Below are positions 1-60,716 of a stretch of DNA of 64,000 nt, piece after piece. The stretch is from positions 14,731 through 78,730 of the forward strand of contig NC_011986.1 of the NCBI RefSeq assembly GCF_000016285.1, given 5' to 3'. The notes beneath the pieces were generated by a model. It made no database searches, was not told the DNA's origin, and worked only from the letters and a program-made list of their open reading frames with translations. A program made the position numbers and the translations under genes. Every line of letters begins with the position of its first letter. Positions within the stretch are counted from its first letter, which is position 1. Origin of the DNA: Allorhizobium ampelinum S4. Lineage in GTDB: Bacteria > Pseudomonadota > Alphaproteobacteria > Rhizobiales > Rhizobiaceae.

Positions 1-806
1 TTGCCGCTCCTTCTGCGCTTGCTTGCGTCCGGATCAGGTTTTGGAGCCATGATGTCAGGGTCAGGGGCTGCAAAATCGGGCTTGCGTAGATTGAAAATGC
101 AGGTCCATTGGTTCCCGTCTCGCAGCGTGTATTGCGTCGCCGTGCCATCAACGACGATGTATTCGCCCTCTTTTCTGAAATTCCGAAGGGTCTCAGAGAA
201 GTCGGACTGAACCGCAAAGATCGCTGGTACGCGCCCTTTGAACTTAAAGAACGTCTTTTTCCCGTCATCGAAGACCATAGACGGCTTCAAAGCGGCATCA
301 CCCGAAAATGAATAGTCGATATTTACATTGGCCTTGTCGATATTGCTTACGTTCGGATTCGCGGCTCTAAACTCCGCCTCTTTCCGCAGAGATGCGTTCA
401 AGTCCTTCTCGGGGTACACAAACCGGATTCCGAAGACCTTACGTTCGTCTGTCGGCGCGTAGTCATTTAATTCGAGGAAATAGATCCGCTTGGATGTCAC
501 GACATTCATGTTCGTAGAAACACCCTTCGCAATAGGTTTTACGAAAAGGATGTTCCCTTTTTCAGACGGTGCGACCTGCCAGCTGTCGGTGTCGCCAAGA
601 GAGATCGTCTCGAACTTTTCATCTTCATCGAAGATGATCATCGTTGAGATGCCGTAAGTCGCTGAGACCTTCACCACGTTGTTTGGCTGGTAAACGACGC
701 TTGTGACGCGTGAATCCAAAGTGCCCGGACGAGGCTGCTGTGCGCCGAAGGCGTGAGTCATCGTTGCGGCCATGAAGGCCGCTGAAAAAAGTAGTCTGAC
801 TCTCAT
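1..806 (-). CDS. virB9: VirB9 type IV secretion protein, 3' end outside window
   Basis: Outer-membrane-complex subunit of the T4SS channel, which forms the periplasmic ring with VirB10 and a VirB7 lipoprotein. The minus-strand frame is open from ATG at 806 to the window edge, about 268 codons, so the C-terminus is missing. It begins with a signal peptide (MRVRLLFSAAFMAATMTHAFGA). The beta-rich body has VirB9/TrbG-type segments such as KRIYFLELNDY, VFGIRFVYP and a C-terminal FKGRVPAIFAV / EYIVVDGTA stretch. Its ATG overlaps the VirB8 stop (ATGA), so translation is probably coupled. VirB10 and VirB11 are expected beyond the edge. Confidence 0.88.
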   Translation of the reverse strand, partial: MRVRLLFSAAFMAATMTHAFGAQQPRPGTLDSRVTSVVYQPNNVVKVSATYGISTMIIFDEDEKFETISLGDTDSWQVAPSEKGNILFVKPIAKGVSTNMNVVTSKRIYFLELNDYAPTDERKVFGIRFVYPEKDLNASLRKEAEFRAANPNVSNIDKANVNIDYSFSGDAALKPSMVFDDGKKTFFKFKGRVPAIFAVQSDFSETLRNFRKEGEYIVVDGTATQYTLRDGNQWTCIFNLRKPDFAAPDPDIMAPKPDPDASKRRRSG

Positions 807-1495
807 CCTGCTGCTCCCGGCGTAACCGTTTCCTGATCGCGACGGTAGTTGTACACCTGGAAGCCAAGGGGGTTTTCAAACCGCCAATCGTTGCGCTCCG
901 GTGTGTCCGTATAACGGAAGCGGACAACAGAGATGTAGTGCCGGGTGATATTGTCACTTTCAGAACTCTCCGTTGTCGAGAACCGGACGAGCGCAGTGCT
1001 AGCGTTCGAGAACGTGACCGACTTTACGTCAACGGTGATTTTCTTGTTTCTGCCCAAACGCCTGCCCGGGTTGTTCGGATTAGCGGCGCTCCATTCGTCT
1101 TGGAGCTCCTTGGCCGCATCGGCCGTGGAAAGAAGCGCGGCAATTCCAAAGTTTTGCTGGATGGCAAACGGGTCATAGCCCTCGCGTGAGCGGATGTACC
1201 GGACAACATTGGCCTGAGTGACAGCCTGCTGGTCAGTGAGGTTTGCCGAGCGCGTGAGCCCGGTCTTGACCTCGATGTAACCTGTATTTTTATCGACCTC
1301 GACGATGTAGGGCTCGAAGGTCTTGAGCGGAACCAACATCACCAGCGTCCCGAGCGACATAAGGGTGATGGCGCTCATTATCAGGGCGATAAACCAAGCG
1401 AATGTCCTTGAGCGATTTGCCTTTTTTACAATCTCCTGTTCCCACTTGTCGCCGTCTTGAAAATAGCTCCGGAGAGCTTCATTTGAATCTGCCAT
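803..1495 (-). CDS. virB8: VirB8 inner-membrane T4SS assembly protein
   Basis: Bitopic inner-membrane scaffold that nucleates T4SS assembly. 230 aa. A short cytoplasmic N-terminus (about residues 1-30) is followed by one membrane helix (about 32-56, FAWFIALIMSAITLMSLGTL). The periplasmic VirB8 domain contains the usual EPYIVEVDKNTG entry strand, a REGYD helix, and the C-terminal RFRYTDTPERNDWRFENPLGFQVYNYRRD region with the conserved NPLGFQV motif. Length is normal for the family. It lies 35 bp after virB6 and overlaps virB9 by 4 bp. Confidence 0.95.
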   Translation of the reverse strand: MADSNEALRSYFQDGDKWEQEIVKKANRSRTFAWFIALIMSAITLMSLGTLVMLVPLKTFEPYIVEVDKNTGYIEVKTGLTRSANLTDQQAVTQANVVRYIRSREGYDPFAIQQNFGIAALLSTADAAKELQDEWSAANPNNPGRRLGRNKKITVDVKSVTFSNASTALVRFSTTESSESDNITRHYISVVRFRYTDTPERNDWRFENPLGFQVYNYRRDQETVTPGAAG

Positions 1496-1530
1496 GGTCT
1501 AGCCCTTAAACCCCTCTGAACAGCCTGCGC

Positions 1531-2559
1531 TTAACGTGGCACGCTGTTACTGCTGATGCTTTTCTGCATCGCGTCCGCGCTTGCATTTCGAATATTTTCC
1601 CGCATTCCCGCATGGGTACGTTCCCTTGCAGCCATCCCGATCCGACCGGCTGCGCCGGAAACACTGCGCGCTCCTGTGAGTGCAGCAGCGGGGGCACTGA
1701 AGCCCGTCAGGCCTCCGACGGTTCGCGCCACTTGGCCGATCCCGGCTGCGACACCCCCCGTAATCCCCTGAGCAAGTGTCTGTATGTTGAAAAGCACGAA
1801 GGCGCCGGCGGCACACAAAAGAAGGAAAGCTGCAACATCATCGAGTTGAAGCCTGCGTTGATCGGCCGCTGCAGCGACTTTCGTCAACTCTGGATCCATT
1901 GCGGAGATCAAGAACGCAGCAACCACGTAAACGAACAACGGAATAATCGCGTACATCAGCACACTTTGGAACCATGCCATTCCGTAGCTTCGCGTAGGTT
2001 GAAACAACAAACATGCGATGAAAATGGGGGCGGTTCCTAGCAGCACCCACATCATGACCTTCGCAAGCAAAAGGATCGCAAGAGCGACGGCGATAAACAC
2101 GCCGACGCCAAACATGATCAGAAAACCGACCATAGCCGGAAGAACAGAAAAATAACCGGCCTGTTCAGCAAAGGCCCCCGCCGCCTTGTTGGCCGTTTCC
2201 CAGATCATCGAAAGGCCGTTTGTCGGCTCTGTGATACCTGTATTGCTGACCGCGAGAATTGCCCGTCCCACGTCTTCCGGTGTATCGCTCAGCCAGGCGT
2301 AGAAGAACGTGTTGAAGTTACCCCATGAGTTTATGAAAGCAACGATCAGCGTCATTCTGACTACGCGGCTGATCACCTCCCCAACGCTGACACGCGCAGT
2401 TCCCATGATCAGTTGAAGACCGTAATAGGCGACGTAGGCAATCAAAAGCACGGTTAGAAGCGGCGTTACTTCGCTCGCAACAACCCCATAGGCGCTTTGC
2501 GTAAAGCTAGCGCCCGTCTGTTCGATCCGATCCAAAAGCCCACCGAGGAAATCCTCCAT
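1531..2559 (-). CDS. virB6: VirB6 polytopic T4SS membrane protein
   Basis: Inner-membrane channel component of the VirB T4SS. 342 aa with several hydrophobic segments (for example VTPLLTVLLIAYVAYYGLQL, a long one near residues 140-180, and FLLLCAAGAFVLFNIQTLA) and a polar Ala/Gly/Arg-rich tail. The family's central Trp-rich loop is recognisable (WGNFNTFFYAWLSDTP). The gap to virB8 is only 35 bp, so there is no room for a canonical virB7 between them. Confidence 0.9.
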   Translation of the reverse strand: MEDFLGGLLDRIEQTGASFTQSAYGVVASEVTPLLTVLLIAYVAYYGLQLIMGTARVSVGEVISRVVRMTLIVAFINSWGNFNTFFYAWLSDTPEDVGRAILAVSNTGITEPTNGLSMIWETANKAAGAFAEQAGYFSVLPAMVGFLIMFGVGVFIAVALAILLLAKVMMWVLLGTAPIFIACLLFQPTRSYGMAWFQSVLMYAIIPLFVYVVAAFLISAMDPELTKVAAAADQRRLQLDDVAAFLLLCAAGAFVLFNIQTLAQGITGGVAAGIGQVARTVGGLTGFSAPAAALTGARSVSGAAGRIGMAARERTHAGMRENIRNASADAMQKSISSNSVPR

Positions 2560-2571
2560 CGCCCAACATCC

Positions 2572-2799
2572 TTATTCAGTTGCTATTGTGCCGATGGCCG
2601 CCAGAGCGGCGGATGGTTCGCCATTGACGCTTGTCATTGGACCACAGTCGTGACGTGGATCCTCAGCATAAGACGTCATATTGGCGGGCCGTTTGCATGG
2701 TGCCGTTTTCTCTTTCGCGGCCGTGCCACAGCCCGCAAGCCCGGCTGTAAAGGTCGCGACTAGAAGCACCGTTCCCGCTATCTCGAATGCCTTAATCAC
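2572..2799 (-). CDS. Small lipoprotein, VirB7- or entry-exclusion (Eex)-like
   Basis: 75 aa starting at a GTG that overlaps the virB5 stop by 8 bp. A lipobox (LAGC, Cys about residue 24) follows a hydrophobic signal segment, so it should be lipid-anchored. The mature part has two more cysteines (CKRP and HDCGP). Its place between virB5 and virB6 matches the eex lipoprotein of pKM101-type operons rather than virB7, which normally follows virB6. No other VirB7 candidate is present, so it may serve either role. The sequence alone does not decide. Confidence 0.7.
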   Translation of the reverse strand: MIKAFEIAGTVLLVATFTAGLAGCGTAAKEKTAPCKRPANMTSYAEDPRHDCGPMTSVNGEPSAALAAIGTIATE

Positions 2800-3490
2800 C
2801 GTAGGTCATCGCCTTCTTCGAGTTCGACATATCGACAAGACGTTGCTGGTTTTGAGCATTGAGCGACTGGACTGTGCCATTCATGACGCCGATCATTTCG
2901 TTTAGCACCAGCCCGGATTGGACCTGAAGCTGCGTATTCTGATCGATCGAGCCCTTGATATCCTCAGCCTTGCCAATCTGCTGACCTGCTTGCTGGAAGG
3001 ATTGGGTACGCTGTTGTACCGCCTGGTTTGAACCGGTCACCAAAGCCGCAACGCCGAGAACCGTGTTCATCACCTCCTCATAGGACTTGTCGCCTGAGAA
3101 TGTGCTATCGGCCTTTCCCGACAGGTTTTTCACCAACTGCAGCCCGTTGATAAAGGTGGAGGCGATTTTGCCGATATCGCCCCCCATGTTCCCGAAATTC
3201 GGTACGCCACCGCTCATCAAGCTGTCGAAGGACGGCATCTGGGAGACACTGAAGCCATTGCCGATAGCAAGGTTCTGCATAGGGCTTTGCACGCTTCCAC
3301 GGTCACCCGTTACGGCCTTAAGTGTTTCTTCGACGGTCTTAAGAACCTCCTTGTTGGTATCGAGGATGTCGGTCGTTGTTTTCGATGTTTCCTGAGCAAC
3401 CTTCAGGTTAGCATTGTCGATTGTGGGGACCTGAGCGTACGCTGTCGAAGCTAGAGCCAGCGAAAACGCCGTTGCGATCGTCTTTTTCAT
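2792..3490 (-). CDS. virB5: VirB5 minor pilin / T4SS tip protein
   Basis: 232 aa with a cleavable signal peptide (MKKTIATAFSLALASTAYA) and a long, mostly helical, Gln/Asn-rich body with coiled-coil character (QAVQQRTQSFQQAGQQIG). It ends in a region typical of VirB5/TrbJ proteins that sit on the T-pilus tip. The position between virB4 (with its transglycosylase) and virB6 fits. Family assignment rests on architecture and position because VirB5 proteins diverge strongly. Confidence 0.8.
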   Translation of the reverse strand: MKKTIATAFSLALASTAYAQVPTIDNANLKVAQETSKTTTDILDTNKEVLKTVEETLKAVTGDRGSVQSPMQNLAIGNGFSVSQMPSFDSLMSGGVPNFGNMGGDIGKIASTFINGLQLVKNLSGKADSTFSGDKSYEEVMNTVLGVAALVTGSNQAVQQRTQSFQQAGQQIGKAEDIKGSIDQNTQLQVQSGLVLNEMIGVMNGTVQSLNAQNQQRLVDMSNSKKAMTYGD

Positions 3491-3502
3491 GGCAGTTCTC
3501 CT

Positions 3503-4591
3503 TTATTGTGTACTCAACATCAGTTTCATTTCGGACGCCCGTTCCCTCTTCTGGACGCAAGCTTGTTCCTTCTCGTTCCACTCCACGTTCAGCGCCGGGT
3601 CACAGAGCTTCACCGTTTCGGGGTCTTTATCGTCGTTTTTCTTCACCGAGCTCGTGCGAGACGAGCCGGATCTTTCACCGAGATCCAGCGCGTTCTTCGA
3701 GTTCATGAGTTCAGCCATTGTCGCTCCAAGACGAATGACCTGATTCATCATTTCGAGATTCGCGTTTCGAGCCCCTGAGTTCTGGTCCCAGCTGTCTTGG
3801 ATCGTGCCCGTCTGCATCTGCCCGAGCTGCTGCAACCACGAACTGACATTGCCACTGCTTTCCGTGATGGACTGGCTCGTCGCCATAGCGTTCATCGAGC
3901 TGTCACGAGCACCCGAGAAGGCTGTGCTGCCTCCTCCATAGTTCATCGGAATGTTTGAGGTATCCGACCCGCCAAACTGCGGCATCCATTGTTTCGTGAT
4001 GCTCGCGACATAGCCTTGGGTTTCTTTGAATGGTGGGATGCCGCCATACTTCTGCACGTTGCCAGGGCCAGCATTGTAAGCGGCCAGAGCGAGGTTCGTA
4101 TTCCCGTTGAAACGCTTCAGCTGTTGCTTGAGATACCGCGCGCCGCCCCGAAGGTTGTCTTCAATGTTGTTTGGGTCAACGCCGAGGTCCTTTGCGGTTC
4201 CTGGCATAAGCTGCGATAGACCCGTCGCGCCTACCGGTGATTTTGCGCAGGGGTTGAAGCGGCTCTCTTGATAGACAAGAGACATGAACAGCGTTTCGTC
4301 TACGCCCTCTTCCTGGGCAACGCGCTTTACGAGGCCGACGATCTCCGGATTAGCTTGCGCGGCAGACGGCGCGTCGCCTCCCTTGCCTTTTTTGTACATC
4401 GAGCAAGTGACGCTGGTGCTGACAGTATGGCGTTTCTTGTCTGTTTCCTTGATGTCGTCGGTTGTTTTCTCCCTCACCGTGTCGTCCGCCGTTAGTGCGG
4501 CGTCGGTGATTGGAACCTGCGTAAAGGCTGCGCTTGGAGCGCCAATCGACATGGCTGTAGCAAGCAGCACCAGAGTGGGACTTTTCCTCAT
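3503..4591 (-). CDS. Second lytic transglycosylase in the virB operon
   Basis: 362 aa. A signal peptide is followed by a linker and an SLT-type lysozyme domain (about residues 80-200): LVYQESRFNP with the catalytic Glu, GATGLSQLMPGTA, and LALAAYNAGPGNV. The C-terminal ~130 residues are low-complexity and helical, with a Lys/Asp-rich stretch and two cysteines. It should cleave peptidoglycan to let the T4SS span the wall. Its ATG overlaps the virB4 stop (ATGA). It is a second enzyme beside the VirB1 at 7714-8682 and shares only the catalytic domain with it. The C-terminal domain is not recognised. Confidence 0.88.
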   Translation of the reverse strand: MRKSPTLVLLATAMSIGAPSAAFTQVPITDAALTADDTVREKTTDDIKETDKKRHTVSTSVTCSMYKKGKGGDAPSAAQANPEIVGLVKRVAQEEGVDETLFMSLVYQESRFNPCAKSPVGATGLSQLMPGTAKDLGVDPNNIEDNLRGGARYLKQQLKRFNGNTNLALAAYNAGPGNVQKYGGIPPFKETQGYVASITKQWMPQFGGSDTSNIPMNYGGGSTAFSGARDSSMNAMATSQSITESSGNVSSWLQQLGQMQTGTIQDSWDQNSGARNANLEMMNQVIRLGATMAELMNSKNALDLGERSGSSRTSSVKKNDDKDPETVKLCDPALNVEWNEKEQACVQKRERASEMKLMLSTQ

Positions 4592-7047
4592 TCAGCATTC
4601 TCCCATCCGCAAAATTTAGCCAACCAGTTTTCCGGCTCGTCTCCATATTGTTCGCGGAGTGCGGCGCACTCCTCGATCGTCTCCTTACGCCCGGACAGGA
4701 CCTTGACGAGATCGGGCATGCTCGAAAGGTCGAGCCGGGCGATGACTGAGTCATTGCCGTGCTTGATCAGGAAGGTTCGCTTTTCGGGCGGGGTGTTCTT
4801 GATGAAGTTGTATTCCTTCACCGTGAGACCGAAGCGCTTGATGTAGCTCTCTTCGTCTGCACGCGGGTTCGGGAAATGAATGTTCGTGGAAGACTGCTCA
4901 ATGAGCGTGTGAGAGACCTTCGACTTTGCAATGTCGGCGGCCGATTGAGTGCCAAAGCCCACGATGCCGTTGAGCTTACGAATGGTCTTCATTTTGTCGA
5001 CAATGAACGCGCTGAAAGTTTCATCGAGGAGCAGCTGCCAGCCTTCGTCCATGAAGAACATGACCGGATTGCCATCCAGCAGTTCATCAAGCCGATGGTA
5101 GAGATACATGAGGGCGGGCGTCCGCAGTTCTTCGTTCCCAAGAATACTGGTCATGTCAAAGCCGAACACCGTCCGGCCAGAGAAGGACAGCACATCGTGT
5201 GGAGCGTTAAAGAGCCAAGCCTTTTCGCCCTCGGTCCAAGGACGAAGTCGAGAATAGAGGTCATTGGCATCAGCACGGGCACGGCCCATAAGCAGGTTGC
5301 CAAGGTTGGTGAGGTTTCGCTGTTGTGCCGGTTCTTCCATGAGGCGGACCACAGCGCGCTCTATGATATCTTCATCTTCCTGGGTGAAGTCGCGGCGATC
5401 ACGTCCACCGAGCATCGCCTTGAGAAGGCGCTGAAGAAATTCTCTGTTTGGTCCCGTGTTCTCCAACTGGAGCGGATTGAATCCAGTTGGTGTACCCGGG
5501 GAAAGGATCTCGTAAGATCCGCCGATGGCTCGAACGAAGATTTCGGCTCCGCGGTCCTTATCAAAAAAGACGGCGCGGGGTGTTGGGGAAACTCGCATGG
5601 CCTGCGCGAGCAGGAAACTCAAACCGACAGTTTTACCCGAGCCGGTCGGTCCTGTGACGGTAAAATGCCCGATATCGCGGCGGTGGAAATTGAACCAGTA
5701 GGGCGTCTGCGATGTCGTCTCAAGGATCGTGATGGGAAGGCCCCAATGCGTACGTTCCGCCTGACCACTGGCGAAATTGTGCATTGATGACAGGCCCGAG
5801 AAGTTCGAGCTGGAGAGCATCGCCTTTCTAGCAATATAGGAATGGTTACCGGGCAACTGCGCCCAAAACGCTGCCTCAAGATTGAGATCTTCACGCAGCC
5901 AGTTGATATTCATGTCCGTGAGGCATGCACCAAGTTCCGAAACGCAGCGGCTCAAGCCTTCGAGGTCCCGGGAAATGCAAAGTAGCGAAAAATGGTGGAA
6001 GCCAAACACGGCTTCCTGATTCAGCATACTGTCGAGAGCAAAATTGATGTCAGATTCTACAGACGTCCCAGCTTCATCCGAGGCACGGATTTGCCTCTGA
6101 AGGCGCGTTATGCGCTCCTGCGCAATTGGCTTGTCTGCAAGGGTAAATGACTGCGTCAGGATGAACTCATGGTTCACCTGTAACAGTCCGTCCAACATGC
6201 CAGGTCCAGTGAAAGGAGGGTATTCCTTGATGGACAGCAGTGCGCCATACCGCGAATCTTCGTCCACGGCGGCTTGCGCGTGAAAGGCGCGCTTGGCGAA
6301 GTGGAGACGAGATGTTCCAATGAAGTTGCGAATGCCCATGCGCGGCAGTCGCATCTTTCGAGACACACTCCCCGTGAGGATAGAATTGAAGAATTCGCAG
6401 GGCTCGGAATACGGTTCGCCCTTGGTCTCTTCCTCCTGCCCCTCGATCTTTGCAATATCATCGGACTTCTTCCGATAGGTTATGCCGAGCGAGCGGGCTC
6501 CATATTTACTCAGTTCACGGACGATATTCCCGATCAGTTCCTCTAGGTCCGTTACCTCTTCGCGCGTGGCTTGTGTTTTGGCGTCCTTGTTGGACTGCGT
6601 AAAAATCCGCTTGAGAGAGTCGCCAACACCAAGCGCGCCGCGCATGCCCGAACGGACAATCGTCAAGTAGATCTCGTTGGTGAACATGCGCTTCTTGCGA
6701 AGCTGACCCATGTATCGCGTATTCAGGATGTCGCAGAATGATTGATCAAACGTTCCGCCGATCTCGGTCTCGACCTCGCGACGGATCACGGTTGACCATA
6801 GGGAAAACCGGCTTGAGCCGAGCGCGCGTATCATCGTGTTCTGGACGACTGATCGCATATTCAATTCGGCCTGGTCTTCGGTCTGGAAAAACAAGCCGTC
6901 GAGCTTGATGACACTGGCGAGTGATCCATTCTCGAGACCTATCACCGTGTCCGAGACATGCCGCATGTAGGGAATATGAACGGACATAGGCCGCTCGTTT
7001 CCGGCGACCTTCCCAAATCCTAGCTCTTCTTTGATGACTTTCAGCAT
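4588..7047 (-). CDS. virB4: VirB4 T4SS ATPase
   Basis: Cytoplasmic/inner-membrane ATPase that powers pilus biogenesis and transfer. About 819 aa from ATG 7047 (MLKVIKEELGFG), 2 nt after the virB3 stop; an in-frame start at 7077 would add 10 residues and overlap virB3. Walker A is GPTGSGKT, Walker B is VMFFMDEGW, and downstream VirB4 motifs include GFGTQSAADIAKS. The N-terminal CagE/TrbE/VirB domain is intact and the length is normal. No strong Shine-Dalgarno precedes either start, so coupling to virB3 is likely. Confidence 0.95.
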   Translation of the reverse strand: MLKVIKEELGFGKVAGNERPMSVHIPYMRHVSDTVIGLENGSLASVIKLDGLFFQTEDQAELNMRSVVQNTMIRALGSSRFSLWSTVIRREVETEIGGTFDQSFCDILNTRYMGQLRKKRMFTNEIYLTIVRSGMRGALGVGDSLKRIFTQSNKDAKTQATREEVTDLEELIGNIVRELSKYGARSLGITYRKKSDDIAKIEGQEEETKGEPYSEPCEFFNSILTGSVSRKMRLPRMGIRNFIGTSRLHFAKRAFHAQAAVDEDSRYGALLSIKEYPPFTGPGMLDGLLQVNHEFILTQSFTLADKPIAQERITRLQRQIRASDEAGTSVESDINFALDSMLNQEAVFGFHHFSLLCISRDLEGLSRCVSELGACLTDMNINWLREDLNLEAAFWAQLPGNHSYIARKAMLSSSNFSGLSSMHNFASGQAERTHWGLPITILETTSQTPYWFNFHRRDIGHFTVTGPTGSGKTVGLSFLLAQAMRVSPTPRAVFFDKDRGAEIFVRAIGGSYEILSPGTPTGFNPLQLENTGPNREFLQRLLKAMLGGRDRRDFTQEDEDIIERAVVRLMEEPAQQRNLTNLGNLLMGRARADANDLYSRLRPWTEGEKAWLFNAPHDVLSFSGRTVFGFDMTSILGNEELRTPALMYLYHRLDELLDGNPVMFFMDEGWQLLLDETFSAFIVDKMKTIRKLNGIVGFGTQSAADIAKSKVSHTLIEQSSTNIHFPNPRADEESYIKRFGLTVKEYNFIKNTPPEKRTFLIKHGNDSVIARLDLSSMPDLVKVLSGRKETIEECAALREQYGDEPENWLAKFCGWENAE

Positions 7048-7049
7048 GA

Positions 7050-7349
7050 TTATGGTCCGTACGAGTTGGTGCCCCAAAAGCGCTTATTGGGAGTGCGGGG
7101 TGTCTTGCGTGACGAAACCTGAAGCACGTCGAGAATTTTCGCGTCCCATGTGCAAAGCGAGAAAAGGACGAGATAGCCCACAGGCGCGAGCAGAAGTGCC
7201 GCGAGATGGTTCGACGCAAGCCATCCGATGATGGTGAGGCCGATGATCAGCACCACCGCCATGTATGGCACGCCCCATAGGGTTGGTGATCGGGTCAGAC
7301 CGATCACCAAAGGCGTGAGCGCCGGCTTCTCATCCGAGAACTCGCTCAA
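7050..7349 (-). CDS. virB3: VirB3 inner-membrane T4SS protein
   Basis: 99 aa starting at TTG, 1 nt after the virB2 stop. The N-terminus (LTPLVIGLTRSPTLWGVPYM) is the VirB3 signature. It is followed by two membrane segments (VVLIIGLTIIGWLA and LLAPVGYLVLFSLCTW) and a basic tail. The order virB2-virB3-virB4 is canonical. Confidence 0.93.
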   Translation of the reverse strand: MSEFSDEKPALTPLVIGLTRSPTLWGVPYMAVVLIIGLTIIGWLASNHLAALLLAPVGYLVLFSLCTWDAKILDVLQVSSRKTPRTPNKRFWGTNSYGP

Positions 7350-7350
7350 C

Positions 7351-7701
7351 TTACTGCCCGCCCACCGAAGAAATCATCTGATCAACAATGGCCGGAGCGC
7401 CGAAGACGAGGCCGATACCAATAACGACCGCGCCGGCTGTAAACCAAGACAAACGACCGGCAAATGCCATGAAGCCCAGGGCGATAACGGCAATGATCGC
7501 CAACAACCGGCCAAATGGGCCAGTGATGAAATCCACGATCATCTGCACGGCGGTCTGGATAGGGCCGAAAGCACCACTGCCTCCGCCGCCTGCCCCTTGG
7601 GCAAACGCCAACTCCGCGCCGACGATCTGCACCGCCGCGACCACGCCAAGAAGCGCGATCATCTTAACCGCCTGGGATTGACCCAACTTCACCTTTTTCA
7701 T
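7351..7701 (-). CDS. virB2: VirB2 major pilin
   Basis: 116 aa prepilin of the T-pilus. It has a long signal peptide ending near AFAQG, then a Gly-rich start of the mature protein and two hydrophobic helices (LLAIIAVIALGFMAFAG and FTAGAVVIGIGLVFGAPAIV) separated by a short RLSW loop, as in VirB2/TrbC pilins. Length and operon place are normal. Confidence 0.93.
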   Translation of the reverse strand: MKKVKLGQSQAVKMIALLGVVAAVQIVGAELAFAQGAGGGGSGAFGPIQTAVQMIVDFITGPFGRLLAIIAVIALGFMAFAGRLSWFTAGAVVIGIGLVFGAPAIVDQMISSVGGQ

Positions 7702-7713
7702 CTGACTCTCTCC

Positions 7714-8682
7714 TTAGAAGTGCATCACGCCACCGACAAACTTGCCGGTTTTCTCAACGGCAATTACCCCGCTACCGTTGGCCGTATTCGTCGCCGCTGC
7801 CTCACGGACGACATTTCCGGCCTTCCGCTTGCCCACAGGCATCGGAAGACCAAGCTGAAAATTGAGGACTTTTGCTACGTACCCGACCGTCTCCTGAAAG
7901 GGCGGAACGCCGCCATATTCGTAGATCCGGTTCTCGCCGCTGTTGTATGCAGCGGCTACGAGCAGAGGATTTTGAAACTCATCGAGCAGAAACCGGAGAT
8001 ACTTGATGCCACCCTCGATGTTCTGCCGTGGATCGCAGATATCAACGACGCCGAACCTCGTTGCGGTATCGGGGATAAGCTGCATGGGGCCACGAGCTCC
8101 TTTGGGAGAGTTGCGAACCACGTCAAACCTGCTTTCGGCCCAAGTGATTGCCACAGCAAACCCCTCATCAACCTGATGGCGGCGCGCGGTCTCTACAACC
8201 AAAGCTTTGATCTCGTCCGGCGTCATCGGAGATGCGCCACACTCTTTTGCCCCCATTACGGGCGAAGCTAACACGTTTCCTGCGCCAATTTGGCTAAGTG
8301 AACCGGTCGCACGAGAAGCAGTCGGAGAGCCGCCTATTGATCCTGTCACATCCACATACGGCGTTTCTGTTGCGCCAATATTAGTATCTGGTGAAGCCGC
8401 AGTCTCGGTCGTGCTGTTTTGCTTGTTCGCGTCCTTCACTACGCCATCAGCGCCCAAGACAAATTCTTTCGCTGGAACAGCCTCGCCAGCCCATCTTTCA
8501 GCGAAATTGGTTGCAAGTGACGGTGATCCAGACGCTTCGCTTCCATTGTATGCGCTAGCTATTCTGGTATTTTTTACAGCATCTTGGGCATATGCAAAGT
8601 TGGCCGACCACAGCGCGACGAGAGCTGTCCCCAAAAGGACGGTGGTGCCTGAAAAGCCTGCCATGCGAGCCCTGTTTTCCAT
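7714..8682 (-). CDS. virB1: VirB1 lytic transglycosylase
   Basis: 322 aa, first gene of the virB operon. Hydrophobic export signal near residues 12-33, then a Ser/Thr/Ala-rich linker and an SLT domain from about residue 155: ITWAESRF with the catalytic Glu, GARGPMQLIPDTATRFGV, and LVAAAYNSGENRI. It opens the peptidoglycan for channel assembly. A divergent promoter region separates it from the SNase-fold operon. Confidence 0.9.
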   Translation of the reverse strand: MENRARMAGFSGTTVLLGTALVALWSANFAYAQDAVKNTRIASAYNGSEASGSPSLATNFAERWAGEAVPAKEFVLGADGVVKDANKQNSTTETAASPDTNIGATETPYVDVTGSIGGSPTASRATGSLSQIGAGNVLASPVMGAKECGASPMTPDEIKALVVETARRHQVDEGFAVAITWAESRFDVVRNSPKGARGPMQLIPDTATRFGVVDICDPRQNIEGGIKYLRFLLDEFQNPLLVAAAYNSGENRIYEYGGVPPFQETVGYVAKVLNFQLGLPMPVGKRKAGNVVREAAATNTANGSGVIAVEKTGKFVGGVMHF

Positions 8683-8742
8683 CGTCTCCGCCTGCCAAAC
8701 GGTGTTGTGATTAGGAAGAAAACCGATTAAGTTGATGCTTGT

Positions 8743-8770
8743 ATGATACCGATTTGGCTCAGACTTACAA
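8743..8770 (-). promoter_or_regulatory. Candidate virB operon promoter
   Basis: On the minus strand TTGTAA (8770-8765) and TATCAT (8748-8743) are separated by 16 nt, about 60 bp upstream of the virB1 start. They match 4/6 and 5/6 positions of the sigma70 consensus. The 157-bp region 8683-8839 is shared with the divergent plus-strand operon. Confidence 0.4.
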
Positions 8771-8839
8771 GTTTTTGTGCCAGTGTTAAACCCCCTTTCT
8801 CAAGGGAATCCGTTGTACCAAGATGGTTAGGGCTAGAAA

Positions 8840-9448
8840 ATGATACGGACCATCATTACCGCACTCGCAGGTTGCGCAATGGCAACACAAGCTTTTGCCG
8901 CGCCGGCAATCAACAAGGATTACGTCAAGTCGCTCGCCGCCCCCGGTAAGACGGCTTTGGTGATCGAGTATTATGACGGCAATGGGAAGGTCGTTGACCG
9001 GAAGGGCTATGCAACAGCCTCAGGGTTCAAGGCTGTATCCGGAACCGACTTCAAGATTGACGATAAGACGACAGTACATCTGTACGGTCTCCAGCCGTGT
9101 AAGGGGGATCTGGTCAACCGGACCGAGGATTATGCGGGAACCTGTGATGACTATGCTCTTAAGCAGCTTCAGGTCATGTTGCAGAGCCCAAAGGTCGTTT
9201 TCTGCCGCGCTTTCGTCAGCGAGCAGGGGGCGACGATGCAGAATGCAACGTGCTACGGGTACTACAATTACCCTGGTGCCATGGACTCGGTCGATAATTT
9301 CGAAGAGCAGCTTCTCTCTCTGGGCGCTCTTCGTCTCGCCAAGAAGCCTGATGGTTCGGTGGAGCGGCCTGATCTACAAGAAGCCGAGAAGCTCGGGAAA
9401 AAGGGCGACTTCGGCATGTGGGCTGATCCGCGGGTAAAGTCGCAATGA
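8840..9448 (+). CDS. Exported SNase-fold protein, catalytically degenerate
   Basis: 202 aa with a signal peptide (ending AFAAP). The core resembles the staphylococcal-nuclease/thermonuclease fold: the strand TTVHLYGLQPC aligns with the FRLLLVDTPE strand of nucleases, but the catalytic Arg, Asp and Glu positions read His, Gln and Lys. Four cysteines (LQPC, GTCDD, VVFCRA, ATCYG) match the pattern of the next two proteins and of the one at 60210. Probably not a nuclease. First gene of an operon divergent from virB, so a role in transfer is plausible but inferred. Confidence 0.72.
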   Translation: MIRTIITALAGCAMATQAFAAPAINKDYVKSLAAPGKTALVIEYYDGNGKVVDRKGYATASGFKAVSGTDFKIDDKTTVHLYGLQPCKGDLVNRTEDYAGTCDDYALKQLQVMLQSPKVVFCRAFVSEQGATMQNATCYGYYNYPGAMDSVDNFEEQLLSLGALRLAKKPDGSVERPDLQEAEKLGKKGDFGMWADPRVKSQ

Positions 9449-9984
9449 GGCGGATAGCTCTTCTTATGGCGGCATTGATGCCTTCCTGGGCTATCGCAGC
9501 CCCGGAGGGCTATTTCGATTTAAAGCCAGACGGGATAACGCTCGAGACCGGAGACACATGGGTGTCCAATGGAGAGCGGTTCCGTCTCTATGGCATACAG
9601 TCATGTTTGCGCGGCACCAACTATACCGATGCCCACGGTAATACTCGCGATTGCGGCGAGGCGTCCCTTGCTGTTCTTGCCGCGTATATCAAGGACACAC
9701 AGCCGATTTGCGCACCAGTCGCTAAGGCAAACAACATTTCATATGTCATTTGTTACGCGACCGTTGGGAGCCAGCGGCTGGATCTAGGGCAGGTTCTCGT
9801 CAGCAGTGGGTACGCGTTTGCTGCATTGAAGAGCGACGGACTTCCATATCATGTCCCCTACTCTGTGGCCGAACAGATGGCCCAGCAGAAAAAGGCGGGT
9901 CTCTGGCAGTTCAAAGACGTCCAGCACCCGTCGATCACCCTCAGCCGAGAAGCCAATCAGCGCGCCAGGAAGGCGGAGCAATGA
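9445..9984 (+). CDS. Exported SNase-fold protein, degenerate active site
   Basis: 179 aa starting with ATGA coupling to the previous gene. Signal peptide ends near AIAAPEG. It has an SNase-like core with ERFRLYGIQSC: the catalytic Arg is kept but the Asp and Glu positions are Gln and Leu. The cysteines IQSC, RDCGEA, PICAP and VICYA repeat the family pattern, and GQVLVSSGYAFA corresponds to the C-terminal helix region of thermonucleases. Start chosen by the overlap and the signal peptide. Confidence 0.75.
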   Translation: MRRIALLMAALMPSWAIAAPEGYFDLKPDGITLETGDTWVSNGERFRLYGIQSCLRGTNYTDAHGNTRDCGEASLAVLAAYIKDTQPICAPVAKANNISYVICYATVGSQRLDLGQVLVSSGYAFAALKSDGLPYHVPYSVAEQMAQQKKAGLWQFKDVQHPSITLSREANQRARKAEQ

Positions 9985-10685
9985 AACATATTCCCCTGTT
10001 CGGCGTCATTATCGCTGCGATTGCCACACCTTCAATGGCCGCCGACCTACAATACTATACCCCGCGCTACTCGGGGCGCGTTGCACCACCCGTCGATTCC
10101 GCGCCCGTCAGGTTGCCGGTCTTCAAAGGCGTTGTAACCGTTCTGGACGGCCGCACTCTTTGGTATGGCTCTCTCGGACGTGGCTATAAGGTCCGCCTCG
10201 CGAGTATCGATGCATGCGAGCTCCCGCAATGGGCTCTCCACCCCAAGTGGGTAGACCGGACAAAGAACCAAGCGCCTATGCCGGTTCCCTGTGGCCCGCT
10301 TGCAAAAGCTTGGTTGAAGCGAACCATTGGCAACAAGGTGACGGTCTGCACGACGCTTGGGTATGGGAATGATGGCATTCCTCTCGCTCAATGCACGGTC
10401 AAAGGCCGAGACGTGGCGACGGAAATGCTGCGCGTAGGCTGGGCGCGAGTGGATTCCCCCTACGCCAACCAACAGTACCTTTCCTATCAGCACGATGCCA
10501 TGGCCGCCCGTTATGGAATGTGGGGCACCTACGTGCTCGACATGAACGAATGGCGGCGCAAAGCGGTTGATAAGACCCTTGAGCGGCGACCTCTGGCGGA
10601 TTTCAACCTTTTGGCAGAACGAAAAAGCGAAATCTCGCCGCCGTTTGCTGACGCACGCAACAAACCTAAGAGGACAGATCGATAG
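9981..10685 (+). CDS. Exported thermonuclease-family protein
   Basis: 234 aa from ATG 9981, which overlaps the previous stop (ATGA) and starts a clear signal peptide (ending SMAAD). Core motifs are VVTVLDGRTLW and KVRLASIDACELPQ. Compared with nucleases (IDGDT...R...D..E), the Ca-binding second Asp is replaced by Arg, while the catalytic Arg, Asp and Glu look present. It has the four-cysteine pattern IDAC, VPCGP, TVCTT and AQCTV. It may be inactive or altered. A long upstream extension in the same frame lacks a start signal and was not used. Confidence 0.8.
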   Translation: MKHIPLFGVIIAAIATPSMAADLQYYTPRYSGRVAPPVDSAPVRLPVFKGVVTVLDGRTLWYGSLGRGYKVRLASIDACELPQWALHPKWVDRTKNQAPMPVPCGPLAKAWLKRTIGNKVTVCTTLGYGNDGIPLAQCTVKGRDVATEMLRVGWARVDSPYANQQYLSYQHDAMAARYGMWGTYVLDMNEWRRKAVDKTLERRPLADFNLLAERKSEISPPFADARNKPKRTDR

Positions 10686-11066
10686 TTGCCGGATATCGCA
10701 CATATCGCGACATCGTTCGCTATCGATCCGATGGCGGCGCTATTGGTTGCCATTCCCCTTTCGCTCGCCCTGATCGTGCCCTGCGAACGTTTGTGGTGGA
10801 TCCACGCCCCCTGCGCTTTGGTCCTCCTCGTGGCCTCAGCCTTATTCCAGGCCGAGCGTCATCTCGCTTTCGACAGCTATCTTGTCGGCTTTTTTGCATT
10901 TGCGGCGGTTTGCCGGGATATCCCAAACCGCCCCCTCCTCTACCGCGTCGGTATCCTCTGGTTTGCAGCATTCTCGTTGATCACCGCCGTCATTTATGCG
11001 GCCTCCGACCGAACAGACCCCCACGCGATAGAAGCCAAGATCTCACACCGGCCAATTCCGCAGTGA
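10686..11066 (+). CDS. Small membrane protein, unknown
   Basis: 126 aa from TTG 10686, one base past the previous stop, with AAGAGGA about 11 nt upstream. About four hydrophobic segments (ALLVAIPLSLALIV, HAPCALVLLVASALF, LVGFFAFAAVC, GILWFAAFSLITAVIYAA) cover most of its length. No family recognised. Its place in the operon of exported SNase-fold proteins beside virB suggests a conjugation-linked membrane protein. Confidence 0.65.
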   Translation: MPDIAHIATSFAIDPMAALLVAIPLSLALIVPCERLWWIHAPCALVLLVASALFQAERHLAFDSYLVGFFAFAAVCRDIPNRPLLYRVGILWFAAFSLITAVIYAASDRTDPHAIEAKISHRPIPQ

Positions 11067-11088
11067 ACGAATGAGAGAGGGAAAGCTA

Positions 11089-11667
11089 ATGAAAGCTCTA
11101 TATTTTGTCGCCGCAGGTGTTGCGGCTTTTGCCATGACACCTGCCGCAAGGGCGCAAGATGCGTCTTGGGGGTGCCAGATCCTCCTTTGCGCAGCGTCCA
11201 AAAACCCCTCATGGCAGGGGGTTGGGTACTGCGTGCCGCCGATGCAGAAATTGATTTCGGCTATGAAGAAGCCCGGCTTTTCGTGGCCGATCTGCGAAGA
11301 AGCTAAAGCCGGGAAACCCGGCCATGAACCTTTTGAAGATTGCCCTGCCGGTTTTCAGGCCGGGCGGGTATCGTCTGGCCGCGACAACGACTCCCTCTTT
11401 GGCGGTGGCGAGGCGAATGTATGCACAAAGACGGTCAACCAGTGCAGCAACCGCGGCGCTTTCCGGACGCTCTACGGGAACGAACGCGCGAACCAGCAGG
11501 CCGGCATCACAATCCGCGAACTTAATTCAAACAATGACAACGGCTTTGGCAACAGCTGCCAAGTTGTCATCACGCAGCCAAGGCCAATGAGGGCTGACCC
11601 CTATTACTTCGATATCCCGAACGACAAAGGCGTGAAGGAACGTCATTGGTTCAACCTCAATCTATGA
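11089..11667 (+). CDS. Conserved-looking exported cysteine-rich protein
   Basis: 192 aa from ATG 11089, preceded by a GA-rich Shine-Dalgarno (GAGAGGGAAA). The upstream ATG at 11071 lies inside that signal and is less likely. The signal peptide ends at ARAQD. The mature protein carries eight cysteines (for example WGCQILLCAASKNPSW, GYCVPPM, WPICEEA, EDCPAGF, VCTKTVNQCSN), so it is probably disulfide-rich and periplasmic. No family name can be given safely. Same operon as the SNase-fold proteins. Confidence 0.72.
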   Translation: MKALYFVAAGVAAFAMTPAARAQDASWGCQILLCAASKNPSWQGVGYCVPPMQKLISAMKKPGFSWPICEEAKAGKPGHEPFEDCPAGFQAGRVSSGRDNDSLFGGGEANVCTKTVNQCSNRGAFRTLYGNERANQQAGITIRELNSNNDNGFGNSCQVVITQPRPMRADPYYFDIPNDKGVKERHWFNLNL

Positions 11668-11677
11668 GGCCAGCGCC

Positions 11678-12103
11678 ATGAACCAGAACATTCTACTCGT
11701 AATCGCTACCGGAGTTGGCATTGCTGCCGGCTCCGGCGCAACTTACGTTTTGATGCCGCAGCCAGATCCGCAAGTTCGCGCACCCACGCATGAAGAAATT
11801 GTAGCAGCCATAGAAGCTGATCCGTCTCTTCTGCCGCGCGAGTTTGTAGCCCCGGCCTTGGAGACCCCGAGCGAAGAAGAGGCCTTGGCGGCATACCGCC
11901 GAGCCTACTCCTCCAATCCGATGCGAACTCGCGGATCTGAGGACCGTATCTCAATACGACTTGGCGAGTGCGACCAGAATCCAGCCGGGCCGGGAGTGTC
12001 TTGTCTTACGTCCATCAAGTTTACCCCGTCCGCCCAACCTCTCGATCGCGTTATTGGATATTCGAAATCCACTTCAGGCGATTGGGTTGCGAACGGATAT
12101 TAG
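11678..12103 (+). CDS. Exported or membrane-anchored protein, unknown
   Basis: 141 aa starting 10 nt after the previous stop. One N-terminal hydrophobic segment (ILLVIATGVGIAAGSGATYVL) is either an anchor or a signal. An acidic Pro/Glu-rich region follows, then a short domain with two cysteines (ECDQN and SCLTS). Last gene of the SNase-fold operon. Function unknown. Confidence 0.65.
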   Translation: MNQNILLVIATGVGIAAGSGATYVLMPQPDPQVRAPTHEEIVAAIEADPSLLPREFVAPALETPSEEEALAAYRRAYSSNPMRTRGSEDRISIRLGECDQNPAGPGVSCLTSIKFTPSAQPLDRVIGYSKSTSGDWVANGY

Positions 12104-12119
12104 CAGCTATCAGGCCAAC

Positions 12120-12452
12120 TCAAACAGTGAGGTTGTCCGCCTCTGTCTGAATCACTTCCATCTCTTTGGGATCCAAAGCTGCCTGCGTTGTCAGGATGTA
12201 GGCAGCTAAATATTCGAGTTTGCGGTCGGATTCGTTTCGGTCGGCTGGCTTGTGCATGACGATCGATAGTCGTGCCGCCTCATCTTCCTTCGATGCAGCA
12301 GCCAAAGCCCCGGCATAAATCACAGGACTTACGCGCTCGGTCGCTCGCTTTTCGTCCCATTCTCTCACCGTCTTAGCCGTCGCCATCTGAGCCGCGATGT
12401 GGCGTTCCATTTTCTCGAAGAGCGAACCGTCTTCCATTCCCTGCTTCATCAT
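12120..12452 (-). CDS. Orphan protein, paralog of 49773-50117
   Basis: About 110 aa from ATG 12452, directly preceded by a strong Shine-Dalgarno (AGAGGTGAG). An earlier in-frame ATG at 12497 has none. Helical and charged, no export signal. The C-terminal part (KLEYLAAYILTTQAALDPKEMEV) closely resembles KLTYVAAYILKTGAVLTPQEMD in the protein at 49773-50117, so the two form a small plasmid family of unknown function. Confidence 0.65.
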   Translation of the reverse strand: MMKQGMEDGSLFEKMERHIAAQMATAKTVREWDEKRATERVSPVIYAGALAAASKEDEAARLSIVMHKPADRNESDRKLEYLAAYILTTQAALDPKEMEVIQTEADNLTV

Positions 12453-17075: not shown

Positions 17076-17312
17076 CAGCAACCAGGCTGGCGGAATTCGA
17101 GCGATCCCGCTGTCCGTGACTTAGCGAAATGCTTGTCCGCGACTTGCCGAAATAACTGTCCCGATTCACTGAAATCCGCAAGATACTCCACTGGACCTCG
17201 TTTTCGGCCTTAGCTCCAGTGTTTTCTGCCCTTTCGCGTCGACGGGCCTGAATATGCGGCAGTGAACCGCCCCGGCTTTGCCGGAGACCCCAACTCGTGA
17301 GAAGTAGGGTCT

Positions 17313-17642
17313 ATGACAAGCAAGACGACGAATAAATTCTCTCCTGAAGTTCGTGCCCGCGCCGTTCGGATGGTGACGGAGCATGAAGCCGAACATCCCT
17401 CCCGCTGGGCGGCGGTATCATCGATAGCGGCCAAGATCGGTTGCTCGGCGCATACCCTCCATGAATGGGTGAAGAAGGCCGAGGTCGACAGCGGCAAGCG
17501 TGCAGGTTTGCCGAGTGACGTGGCGGAGAAGATGAAGGCTCTGGAGCGGGAGAACCGCGAGCTTCGTCAGGCGAATGAGATTTTACGCAAAGCCTCGGCG
17601 TATTTTGCCCAGGCGGAGCTCGACCGCCCACTGAAGCGATGA
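17313..17642 (+). CDS. IS3-family OrfA
   Basis: 109 aa DNA-binding subunit: Tra8/IS3-type helix-turn-helix ([17 protein letters not shown]... [20 protein letters not shown]) followed by a leucine-zipper-like helix ([21 protein letters not shown]). The stop overlaps the orfB start (ATGA), so OrfB can be made by coupling or by frameshifting to an OrfAB fusion. Confidence 0.93.
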
Positions 17643-18544
17643 TTTCCTTCATTGACGAACACCGCTCGGTGCTCGGGGTCGAGCCGATCTGCAGGCTGCT
17701 GCCGATTGCCCCGTCCACCTATTATGAGGTCGTCGCCAAGCGCACGGACGTGGGTCGCCTATCGGCCCGCGAACGGAATGATATTGCCATGAAAGTCGAG
17801 ATACGCCGGGTGTTCAACGAGAACTTCCAGGTCTATGGCGTGCGGAAAGTGTGGCGACAGTTGCAGCGAGAAGGCTTCGATATTGCTCGCTGCACCGTCG
17901 CAAGGCTCATGAGAATGATGGGTCTTCAAGGCATCATTCGTGGCAAGCCCATCAAAACCACCGTATCGGACAAGTCTGCCCCGTGTCCGCTCGACCGCGT
18001 CAACCGCCACTTCAAGGCTCCCGCGCCGAACATGCTCTGGCTTTCCGATTTCACCTATGTCGCGACCTGGCAGGGCTTCGTCTACGTGGCCTTTGTAATC
18101 GATGCCTTCGCCCGCCGTATCGTTGGCTGGCGGGCCAGTCGAACAGCGCACGCGGGATTCGTCCTCGATGCTCTCGACCAGGCACTCCATGATCGGCGGC
18201 CCGTCAAACGTGGCGGGCTGGTTCATCATTCCGACCGCGGCTCGCAATACGTGTCCATTCGCTATTCCGAACGACTGGCCGAGGCGGGCATCGACCCGTC
18301 TGTCGGAAGCGTTGGCGATAGTTACGACAATGCTCTCGCCGAAACGATCAACGGTCTTTACAAGGCCGAGGTCATCCATCGGCGAGGACCATGGCGCAAC
18401 TTCGAAGCTGTGGAGTTCGCCACGCTCGAATGGGTCGACTGGTTCAACCACCGTCGCCTTCTGGAGCCCATCGGGAATATCCCGCCAGCCGAGGCCGAAG
18501 AACGATACTACGCCATACTGGACGCGCCAGCCATGGCCGCATAA
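17639..18544 (+). CDS. IS3-family transposase OrfB
   Basis: 301 aa with the HTH_21 region ([27 protein letters not shown]) and the rve-type DDE core: [18 protein letters not shown], and [18 protein letters not shown] with the catalytic Asp and Glu. Full length. Identical in sequence to the copy encoded at 57497-58402. Confidence 0.94.
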
Positions 18545-18583
18545 CTTAAACCAAACGGTCTCCGGCAAAGCCGGGGCGGTTCA

Positions 18584-57457: not shown

Positions 57458-57496
57458 TGAACCGCCCCGGCTTTGCCGGAGACCGTTTGGTTTAAG

Positions 57497-58402
57497 TTAT
57501 GCGGCCATGGCTGGCGCGTCCAGTATGGCGTAGTATCGTTCTTCGGCCTCGGCTGGCGGGATATTCCCGATGGGCTCCAGAAGGCGACGGTGGTTGAACC
57601 AGTCGACCCATTCGAGCGTGGCGAACTCCACAGCTTCGAAGTTGCGCCATGGTCCTCGCCGATGGATGACCTCGGCCTTGTAAAGACCGTTGATCGTTTC
57701 GGCGAGAGCATTGTCGTAACTATCGCCAACGCTTCCGACAGACGGGTCGATGCCCGCCTCGGCCAGTCGTTCGGAATAGCGAATGGACACGTATTGCGAG
57801 CCGCGGTCGGAATGATGAACCAGCCCGCCACGTTTGACGGGCCGCCGATCATGGAGTGCCTGGTCGAGAGCATCGAGGACGAATCCCGCGTGCGCTGTTC
57901 GACTGGCCCGCCAGCCAACGATACGGCGGGCGAAGGCATCGATTACAAAGGCCACGTAGACGAAGCCCTGCCAGGTCGCGACATAGGTGAAATCGGAAAG
58001 CCAGAGCATGTTCGGCGCGGGAGCCTTGAAGTGGCGGTTGACGCGGTCGAGCGGACACGGGGCAGACTTGTCCGATACGGTGGTTTTGATGGGCTTGCCA
58101 CGAATGATGCCTTGAAGACCCATCATTCTCATGAGCCTTGCGACGGTGCAGCGAGCAATATCGAAGCCTTCTCGCTGCAACTGTCGCCACACTTTCCGCA
58201 CGCCATAGACCTGGAAGTTCTCGTTGAACACCCGGCGTATCTCGACTTTCATGGCAATATCATTCCGTTCGCGGGCCGATAGGCGACCCACGTCCGTGCG
58301 CTTGGCGACGACCTCATAATAGGTGGACGGGGCAATCGGCAGCAGCCTGCAGATCGGCTCGACCCCGAGCACCGAGCGGTGTTCGTCAATGAAGGAAATC
58401 AT
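57497..58402 (-). CDS. IS3-family transposase OrfB (copy 2)
   Basis: 301 aa, identical to the OrfB encoded at 17639-18544, with DDE residues in [17 protein letters not shown] and [13 protein letters not shown]. Full length. Confidence 0.94.
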
Positions 58403-58728
58403 CGCTTCAGTGGGCGGTCGAGCTCCGCCTGGGCAAAATACGCCGAGGCTTTGCGTAAAATCTCATTCGCCTGACGAAGCTCGCGGTTCTCCCGCTCCAG
58501 AGCCTTCATCTTCTCCGCCACGTCACTCGGCAAACCTGCACGCTTGCCGCTGTCGACCTCGGCCTTCTTCACCCATTCATGGAGGGTATGCGCCGAGCAA
58601 CCGATCTTGGCCGCTATCGATGATACCGCCGCCCAGCGGGAGGGATGTTCGGCTTCATGCTCCGTCACCATCCGAACGGCGCGGGCACGAACTTCAGGAG
58701 AGAATTTATTCGTCGTCTTGCTTGTCAT
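58399..58728 (-). CDS. IS3-family OrfA (copy 2)
   Basis: 109 aa, identical to the OrfA encoded at 17313-17642: N-terminal helix-turn-helix and C-terminal zipper helix. Overlaps orfB by 4 bp. Confidence 0.93.
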
Positions 58729-58778
58729 AGACCCTACTTCTCACGAGTTGGGGTCTCCGGCAAAGCCGGGGCGGTTCA

Positions 58779-60213: not shown

Positions 60214-60716
60214 GAAAAAAACCCGTTTTTTCGGCTCTCTTGTTCGCTCTTGTGTTTTCACAACCAGCCAGCGCGGCGGACTATTCCGGGCAAGCCCGCG
60301 TGATCGATGGCGACACCTTCAGCATTCGACAGCAGCGGATCAGGATTGCGGCGATTGACGCCTGCGAGCGCTCGCAAAAGGGCTGGAAGAATGGAGCCGA
60401 ATGGGCGTGTGGTGTCGAGGCTCGCAGCTATCTTTCTCGCCTTATCGACGGAAAGCATGTGACATGCACTATCATAGACGAAGACCAATACCGTCGCCTA
60501 GTCGGACAGTGCTACATCCAGCAAACCGATATCGGCCTTGAAATGGTGAAAGCCGGCCAGGCGCGACTTCTGTTGCAGTATCTACCGCGAGGGAACTCAA
60601 TGCCTCTTGACGCTTACCACCAGGCCGAAGACAGCGCCCGGGGCAGACGTTTGGGCCAGTGGGCGGCCGAGATCGACGCGCCGAGCAATTATCGCCGTTC
60701 CAATTCTCATCAGTAA
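60210..60716 (+). CDS. Exported thermonuclease (SNase family)
   Basis: 168 aa from TTG 60210, overlapping the repC stop, with GGAGG upstream. Signal peptide ends ASAAD. SNase core RVIDGDTFSIRQQRIRIAAIDACE keeps the Ca-binding and catalytic Asp, Arg and Glu; RRLVGQCYI supplies the second Arg region. Four cysteines (IDAC, WACGV, VTCTI, GQCYI) match the three SNase-fold proteins at 8840-10685. Probably the active member of the set. Confidence 0.88.
   Translation: MRKKPVFSALLFALVFSQPASAADYSGQARVIDGDTFSIRQQRIRIAAIDACERSQKGWKNGAEWACGVEARSYLSRLIDGKHVTCTIIDEDQYRRLVGQCYIQQTDIGLEMVKAGQARLLLQYLPRGNSMPLDAYHQAEDSARGRRLGQWAAEIDAPSNYRRSNSHQ

Follow-up and report, generated by a model that had tools for sequence, protein, structure and literature searches.

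Rhizobia and agrobacteria pass genes, those for symbiosis among them, from strain to strain by means of conjugation machines whose parts list comes mainly from a few model plasmids. A 64,000-nucleotide stretch of the Allorhizobium ampelinum S4 genome (contig NC_011986.1, positions 14,731 to 78,730; hereafter the window) raises the question of what three adjacent nuclease-like genes, here called A, B and C, contribute to the virB operon beside which they lie. A first-pass annotation, made from the sequence of the window, read them as secreted proteins with a core like that of staphylococcal nuclease (SNase), which had lost their catalytic residues step by step, had kept a fixed pattern of four cysteines, and had been reused as structural or binding proteins of the transfer apparatus; a fourth SNase gene, D, some 50 kb away, was read as intact. 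We followed these proposals through related genomes, alignments, structure models and a phylogenetic tree.

Gene A (8840–9448; 202 aa, acidic), gene B (9445–9984; 179 aa, with the typical motif RLYG[VI]Q[SA]C[LI]RGT) and gene C (9981–10685; 234 aa, basic) lie head to tail on the plus strand, and the open reading frames of the window overlap by 4 nt at both junctions. On the same strand, orf10686 (10686–11066), which encodes a 126-aa protein that looks hydrophobic by eye, begins without a gap after C and is present in part of the examined loci; it is followed by orf11071 (11071–11667), whose product is Cys-rich and appears, again by eye, to have a signal peptide. Diverging from A on the minus strand is a virB operon with the gene order virB1-2-3-4-LT-5-6-8. 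Its first gene, the virB1 lytic transglycosylase, occupies 7714–8682, and the remainder within the window (virB2, virB3, virB4, a second lytic transglycosylase, virB5, virB6 and virB8) spans 803–7701. The second lytic transglycosylase gene (3503–4591), located inside the operon in addition to virB1, was matched in 77 of the best 80 B loci described below; the remaining three loci are incomplete. The overlapping genes and the opposite orientation of virB1 bear out the proposal that A, B and C share an operon divergent from virB. A Sec-type signal peptide is apparent at the start of all three proteins, which agrees with the proposed export as far as judgment by eye allows, and the periplasm would be the likely destination. 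The locus has a close counterpart in the Agrobacterium vitis plasmid pRvVAR0630d, which shares 93.6% DNA identity over 90% of 7300–12200 and has the same gene order; VirB9-11, VirD4, TraA and MobC are annotated there.

The intergenic region between virB1 and A (8683–8839), which presumably holds divergent promoters, contains ACCGATT repeats (AAAACCGATTAAGTT and TGATACCGATTTGG). The 10-mers of this element recur at similar places in 25–31 of 79 upstream regions, and the element is a candidate regulator site. Sigma-70-like sites in 8600–12200 numbered 2, versus 2.1 expected.

A scan of genome contigs with the B family yielded 268 relatives, and the 80 best of them were examined. All 80 loci carry B and C and 79 also carry A, so the same trio does stand beside virB elsewhere, with strong co-occurrence as the first-pass annotation had anticipated: virB1 lies on the opposite strand in 78 of the 79 loci with A, and the exception (L117) is a 3.4-kb contig without virB1. 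The coupling of the genes is equally regular, with A ending in an [AGT]TGA overlap in 79/79 loci and B doing so in 77/79. Several families are represented, and the linkage holds down to 32–39% protein identity (locus L016). In this distant trio, the third SNase-like gene (L016:2498-3055) starts with a lipobox-like LLLAACS and may therefore encode a lipoprotein. A further irregularity was seen in an Aquibium oceanicum plasmid (L059:9507-10201), where the C gene is apparently split into two open reading frames.

The order was also sampled in 397 genomes that include the window's own. A was found in seven of these, each time beside virB1; one of these A genes, at 32% identity and from another family, shares a 3.2-kb contig with virB1, B and one more SNase-like gene, the third there. 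VirB4 matched at E ≤ 1e-150 in 14 places, six of them at 71–100% identity and beside A; the other eight, at 38–50% identity, are not beside A, so that the more distant VirB loci of this sample lack it. Two sampled genomes have A with neither B nor C beside it, and in a third A is accompanied by C alone (a fourth, G187, cannot be judged because its contig ends). The complete arrangement virB1-A-B-C-orf is carried by plasmid pRmeGR4a of Sinorhizobium meliloti GR4. At one of the examined loci (L109:1-11576, Agrobacterium tumefaciens MEJ076), virB3-virB5 are followed by B and C on the same strand with no A, an arrangement that is either rearranged or mis-assembled. The partial loci (A alone, A with C, B with C) indicate that the trio is not a strict unit. 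Plasmid records with a match numbered 99 for A, 234 for B and 113 for C; A is the most constant member beside virB1, and B is the most widespread in plasmid records.

Predicted structure models show that A and C fold like SNase, which supports for these two the core that had been read from sequence. Membership of the Pfam family PF00565 is graded among the four proteins: D (63.2) and C (31.4) exceed the gathering score of 21, B is at its edge (20.5 in one comparison, 21.4 in another), and A has no Pfam match, with one of 66 A relatives matching PF00565 at E 0.11. VirB families were not matched by A, B or C in Pfam and NCBIfam at E ≤ 1. When solved structures were searched by sequence, D gave a weak match to staphylococcal nuclease (best E 0.02), C and the A3 profile gave none, and the A4 profile gave chance-level rows only, among them 2wac, CG7008-PA (E 1.3), which we take to be Tudor-SN of Drosophila. 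Comparisons between families with hhalign were weak (probabilities of 68, 57 and 9%; P 5e-5 to 4e-3), although the four cysteines line up in them.

We compared the active sites using residue numbers taken from an alignment of D to staphylococcal nuclease and counts from the orthologues at 79 (A), 80 (B) and 80 (C) loci. The catalytic set D21, R35, D40, E43 and R87 is complete in D and incomplete in A, B and C, so that D alone of the four has a full active site, as had been supposed. By way of control, 34 other SNases from this genome and its order, D among them, were aligned in reading frames chosen by profile, and 32 keep all five residues. The loss of a Ca-binding Asp from C is confirmed by the presence of Arg at D21 in 77/80 sequences (Asp in 2, Thr in 1); C keeps D19 in 76, R35 in 70, D40 in 79 and E43 in 72 of the 80. 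B, said to have lost an Asp and the Glu, has indeed replaced D40 by Gln in 80/80 and E43 by Leu (77) or Ile (3), and retains R35 in 79/80 and an acidic equivalent of D21 (Asp 76, Glu 4). In A, R35 is replaced by His (64), Asn (8) or Lys (4), with Arg in 3; D40 by Glu (57), Gln (21) or Thr (1); E43 is Glu in 1/79; and R87 is never Arg, with Lys in 13. The claim that A has lost both acidic Ca ligands and the Glu thus stands for D40 and E43, but the loss of D21 is not proven, since three alignments pair this residue with D70, K50 or T69. The R87 column is without Arg in 239/239 A, B and C sequences. Wider sets of 121 rows each, drawn from the best 120 of 410, 245 and 605 homologues found, agree with the losses counted at the 79–80 loci.

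The cysteines required a different conclusion. All four are invariant or nearly so within each of the A, B and C families, exactly the layout first noticed, and their places in the SNase fold make Cys3-Cys4 and Cys1-Cys2 bonds likely. However, Cys 2, 3 and 4 are also present in 29 of the 34 control SNases, and in 28 of these five residues separate E43 from the first Cys. D is the one exception: it shares with A, B and C a first Cys at P42. The layout comes from ordinary SNases by inheritance and on its own gives no sign of reuse, and we rejected the cysteines as a mark of pseudo-enzymes.

In an 85-row tree, A, B and C each form one supported clade (97/97, 97/95 and 100/99, respectively) that falls outside the bulk of the other SNases; the branching order among the clades is uncertain, as is the position of D, and long branches are formed by L058_A, L016_A, L007_S, L008_S and L045_S. 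The tree excludes L001_S (a duplicate of D), L113_A, L113_C and L060_X. Clades that are each well supported, and each marked by a fixed set of losses, do not form the series of stepwise losses that had been suggested, and stepwise decay of recent tandem copies was rejected on this ground. Rather, the counts at 79–80 loci, the intact controls and the tree together make each loss pattern a fixed property of an old clade.

These clades are under purifying selection. In three close pairs, for some of which dS is small, dN/dS was 0.034–0.052 for A, 0.046–0.105 for B and 0.053–0.115 for C, compared with higher values for VirB1 (0.18–0.38) and lower ones for VirB4 (0.023–0.028); more distant pairs are often dS-saturated. 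Constraint extends to the C-terminal tail of C (residues 183–234 plus stop; 10527–10685, plus strand), a candidate docking segment of 52 residues that is more conserved than the core (mean top-residue frequency 0.87 versus 0.71). The tail is modeled with a pLDDT of about 38–44, and a segment that is conserved yet of low pLDDT is what would be expected if it folded on a partner. The three proteins also differ in charge, with mature medians of -3.1 for A, -0.1 for B and +9.9 for C (pI 9.6); the core medians of A (-5.3) and B (-1.2) compare with +1.6 for 33 other SNase cores.

B relatives at 34–54% identity occur in other T4SS loci. Genes for virB or virD4 lie near B relatives in 6/6 plasmid loci examined, and among the 397 genomes B occurs at ten places in nine genomes, nine of these places having virB or virD4 genes; the tenth (L166) is on a contig of 12.9 kb, where a relaxase match is weak and a homologue of orf11071 is present. 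Five loci (L057, L060, L165, L166 and L169) belong to a Rhizobium leguminosarum-like type in which B is located between two other SNase-like proteins, X and Y, which like A, B and C are without the catalytic set: in four aligned loci, D40 and E43 are replaced in X by Gln and Leu, and D21, D40 and E43 in Y by Thr, Glu and Arg, respectively. Cys 1 and 2 are missing from Y in 4/4 rows and from X in 1/4, so the disulfide layout is not universal, and the contrast between an acidic A and a basic C is not repeated in the charges of X and Y. Both kinds of trio, A-B-C and X-B-Y, are followed in T4SS loci by orf11071, which carries the conserved motif WGC..LLC..P.W..C.PPM. A possible resemblance of orf11071 to TrbM was rejected, because Pfam showed no such match in any of 17 members; orf11071 has no Pfam family.

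Gene D (60210–60716, plus strand) lies outside the trio in a genomic context of its own, overlapping repC by 4 nt (58933–60716). D-like matches were found in 335 plasmid records; of the best 40, many coincide with or adjoin an annotated repC, and 33 recur among the matches listed for the whole region or for one of A, B and C. D matches the PADLOC model PDLC01096 (SNc+LTD) at 4e-5. No PADLOC model was matched by A, B, C, orf10686, orf11071 or orf11678 at E ≤ 0.01, and a defence role for the trio was rejected on this basis. Elsewhere in the window, two IS3-like copies (17263–18583 and, inverted, about 57458–58778) share an identical 1321-bp block and flank about 39 kb that contain copper genes by eye; the pair points to a recent transposition or to an inversion-prone segment.

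The signal peptides, the coupled genes, the incomplete active sites, the purifying selection and the tie to one VirB clade lead us to regard A, B and C, with moderate confidence, as non-catalytic exported accessory proteins, built on the OB-barrel of the SNase fold, of a conjugative MPF_T T4SS, most likely the rhizobial Mpf type IVb. In the proposed arrangement the three proteins would be exported to the periplasm, form two disulfides each and act by binding, perhaps as a complex. A, which is acidic, beside virB1 and sometimes alone, would be the core piece; the basic C would dock by its conserved tail to a partner in an envelope-spanning complex or pilus; and B would be a shared module, serving related T4SS types too. 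The trio would help to assemble or stabilize the channel or pilus, or make contact with DNA or the recipient, and would not cut. More tentatively, and with an expectation a little short of even, we suggest that the T4SSs of Hyphomicrobiales contain a so far unnoticed periplasmic or pilus-associated subcomplex in which three paralogous pseudo-nucleases serve as structural or docking subunits, with the C tail as docking arm, and which arose or diverged in at least two lineages (A-B-C and X-B-Y). Several observations weigh against an accessory role, including the partial loci, the distant VirB loci without A, the cysteines and charges of X and Y, and the precedent of TSN, whose eukaryotic SNase-like domains have lost most catalytic residues while some still cut RNA, as the available text of one study describes (PMC5900569). 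Given that precedent, the catalytic residues kept by B and C count against a non-catalytic reading, and because degenerate SN domains can keep activity, a "dead" site here means only one without the classical catalytic set.

The same features were weighed under four other explanations. The basic charge of C, its usual retention of R35, D40 and E43, and the R35 of B would suit periplasmic nucleic-acid binders that keep hold of DNA, or protect it, while it is exported or imported at the T4SS, but the acidic core of A and the near-neutral core of B fit poorly with binding by all three, and the T-strand is thought to pass within the T4SS channel; we consider this explanation rather unlikely. Precedent from TSN bears on it, in that the SNase-like domains bind RNA, and bears also on the idea that B, C or both are still weak or altered metal-dependent nucleases that trim DNA or RNA at the envelope, in that a single conserved Ca ligand is enough for SN1 and SN3 to work (PMC5900569, available text). 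Residual cutting would draw on the D19, R35, D40 and E43 of C and the D21 equivalent of B; set against these are the absence of Arg from R87 throughout, the invariant Gln at D40 of B, the Arg at D21 of C, and the loss of four of five catalytic positions from A, which leave it distinctly improbable.

Pairing of a pseudo-enzyme with an active enzyme is a general theme, and an intact D often stands next to repC on the same plasmids as the trio, as the 33 of the best 40 D records attest. The pseudo-nucleases could accordingly bind and inhibit D or recipient nucleases, and so shield incoming plasmid DNA. Yet D belongs with the replication operon, about 50 kb from the trio, and B is also found in further T4SS loci (examined for their transfer genes); we hold shielding to be slightly less probable still than residual cutting. 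Finally, an operon that is divergent from virB and not inside it, and some of whose members can be missing, might be cargo that hitch-hikes beside virB without any role in transfer; this is very improbable, since the linkage persists across several families down to the identities seen at L016 and tracks the VirB4 clade, and since B recurs in a second T4SS type. If A, B and C are instead accessory proteins of the T4SS, as we favor, then three conserved signal-peptide proteins tied to one VirB clade would be new parts of the machine. Their current names may mislead: many records label B and C "thermonuclease family protein" or "exoI", while A is entered as "hypothetical". The trio is also a clean case, in three adjacent paralogues, of an enzyme fold that has stayed under selection after loss of its active site.

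Taken singly, an SNase fold, a pseudo-enzyme or a T4SS accessory protein is nothing new, but we did not see the three combined in searches of the open-licence literature; proteins of the A, B or C type were not described in the titles and abstracts searched. With respect to the staphylococcal nuclease family (PF00565), the trio is distinguished by the incomplete catalytic set of all three members and the extra conserved tail of C, and has its first Cys at the P42 position, as does D. The T4SS itself is probably Mpf type IVb, a placement by shared genes, because the megaplasmid records of SM11 and RU11/001 carry A and C. The available text of a study of plasmid pSmeLPU88a of S. meliloti reports that its Mpf type IVb is functional in transfer and resembles the SM11 and RU11/001 systems (PMC13274422); the word "nuclease" occurs 0 times in the main text of that paper.

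The nearest published remark that we saw concerns pLPU83a_0136 of Rhizobium favelukesii, a "putative thermonuclease" beside traG that is up-regulated with conjugation genes in an rcgR mutant, and whose function the authors leave open in the available text (PMC13055273). By its description it resembles the trio as an SNase-family gene adjoining conjugation genes, and differs in being a single gene on a group I-C plasmid. A likeness in principle only is offered by HelP and the ICESt3 Aux proteins, OB-fold relaxosome auxiliaries of Gram-positive ICEs, which were likewise recruited to conjugation but, according to the text available, act with a relaxase or helicase (PMC12857230). TSN is comparable to the trio in its degenerate SNase-like domains; these differ, as far as the available text goes, in being tandem eukaryotic domains of one chain, two of which still cut RNA (PMC5900569).
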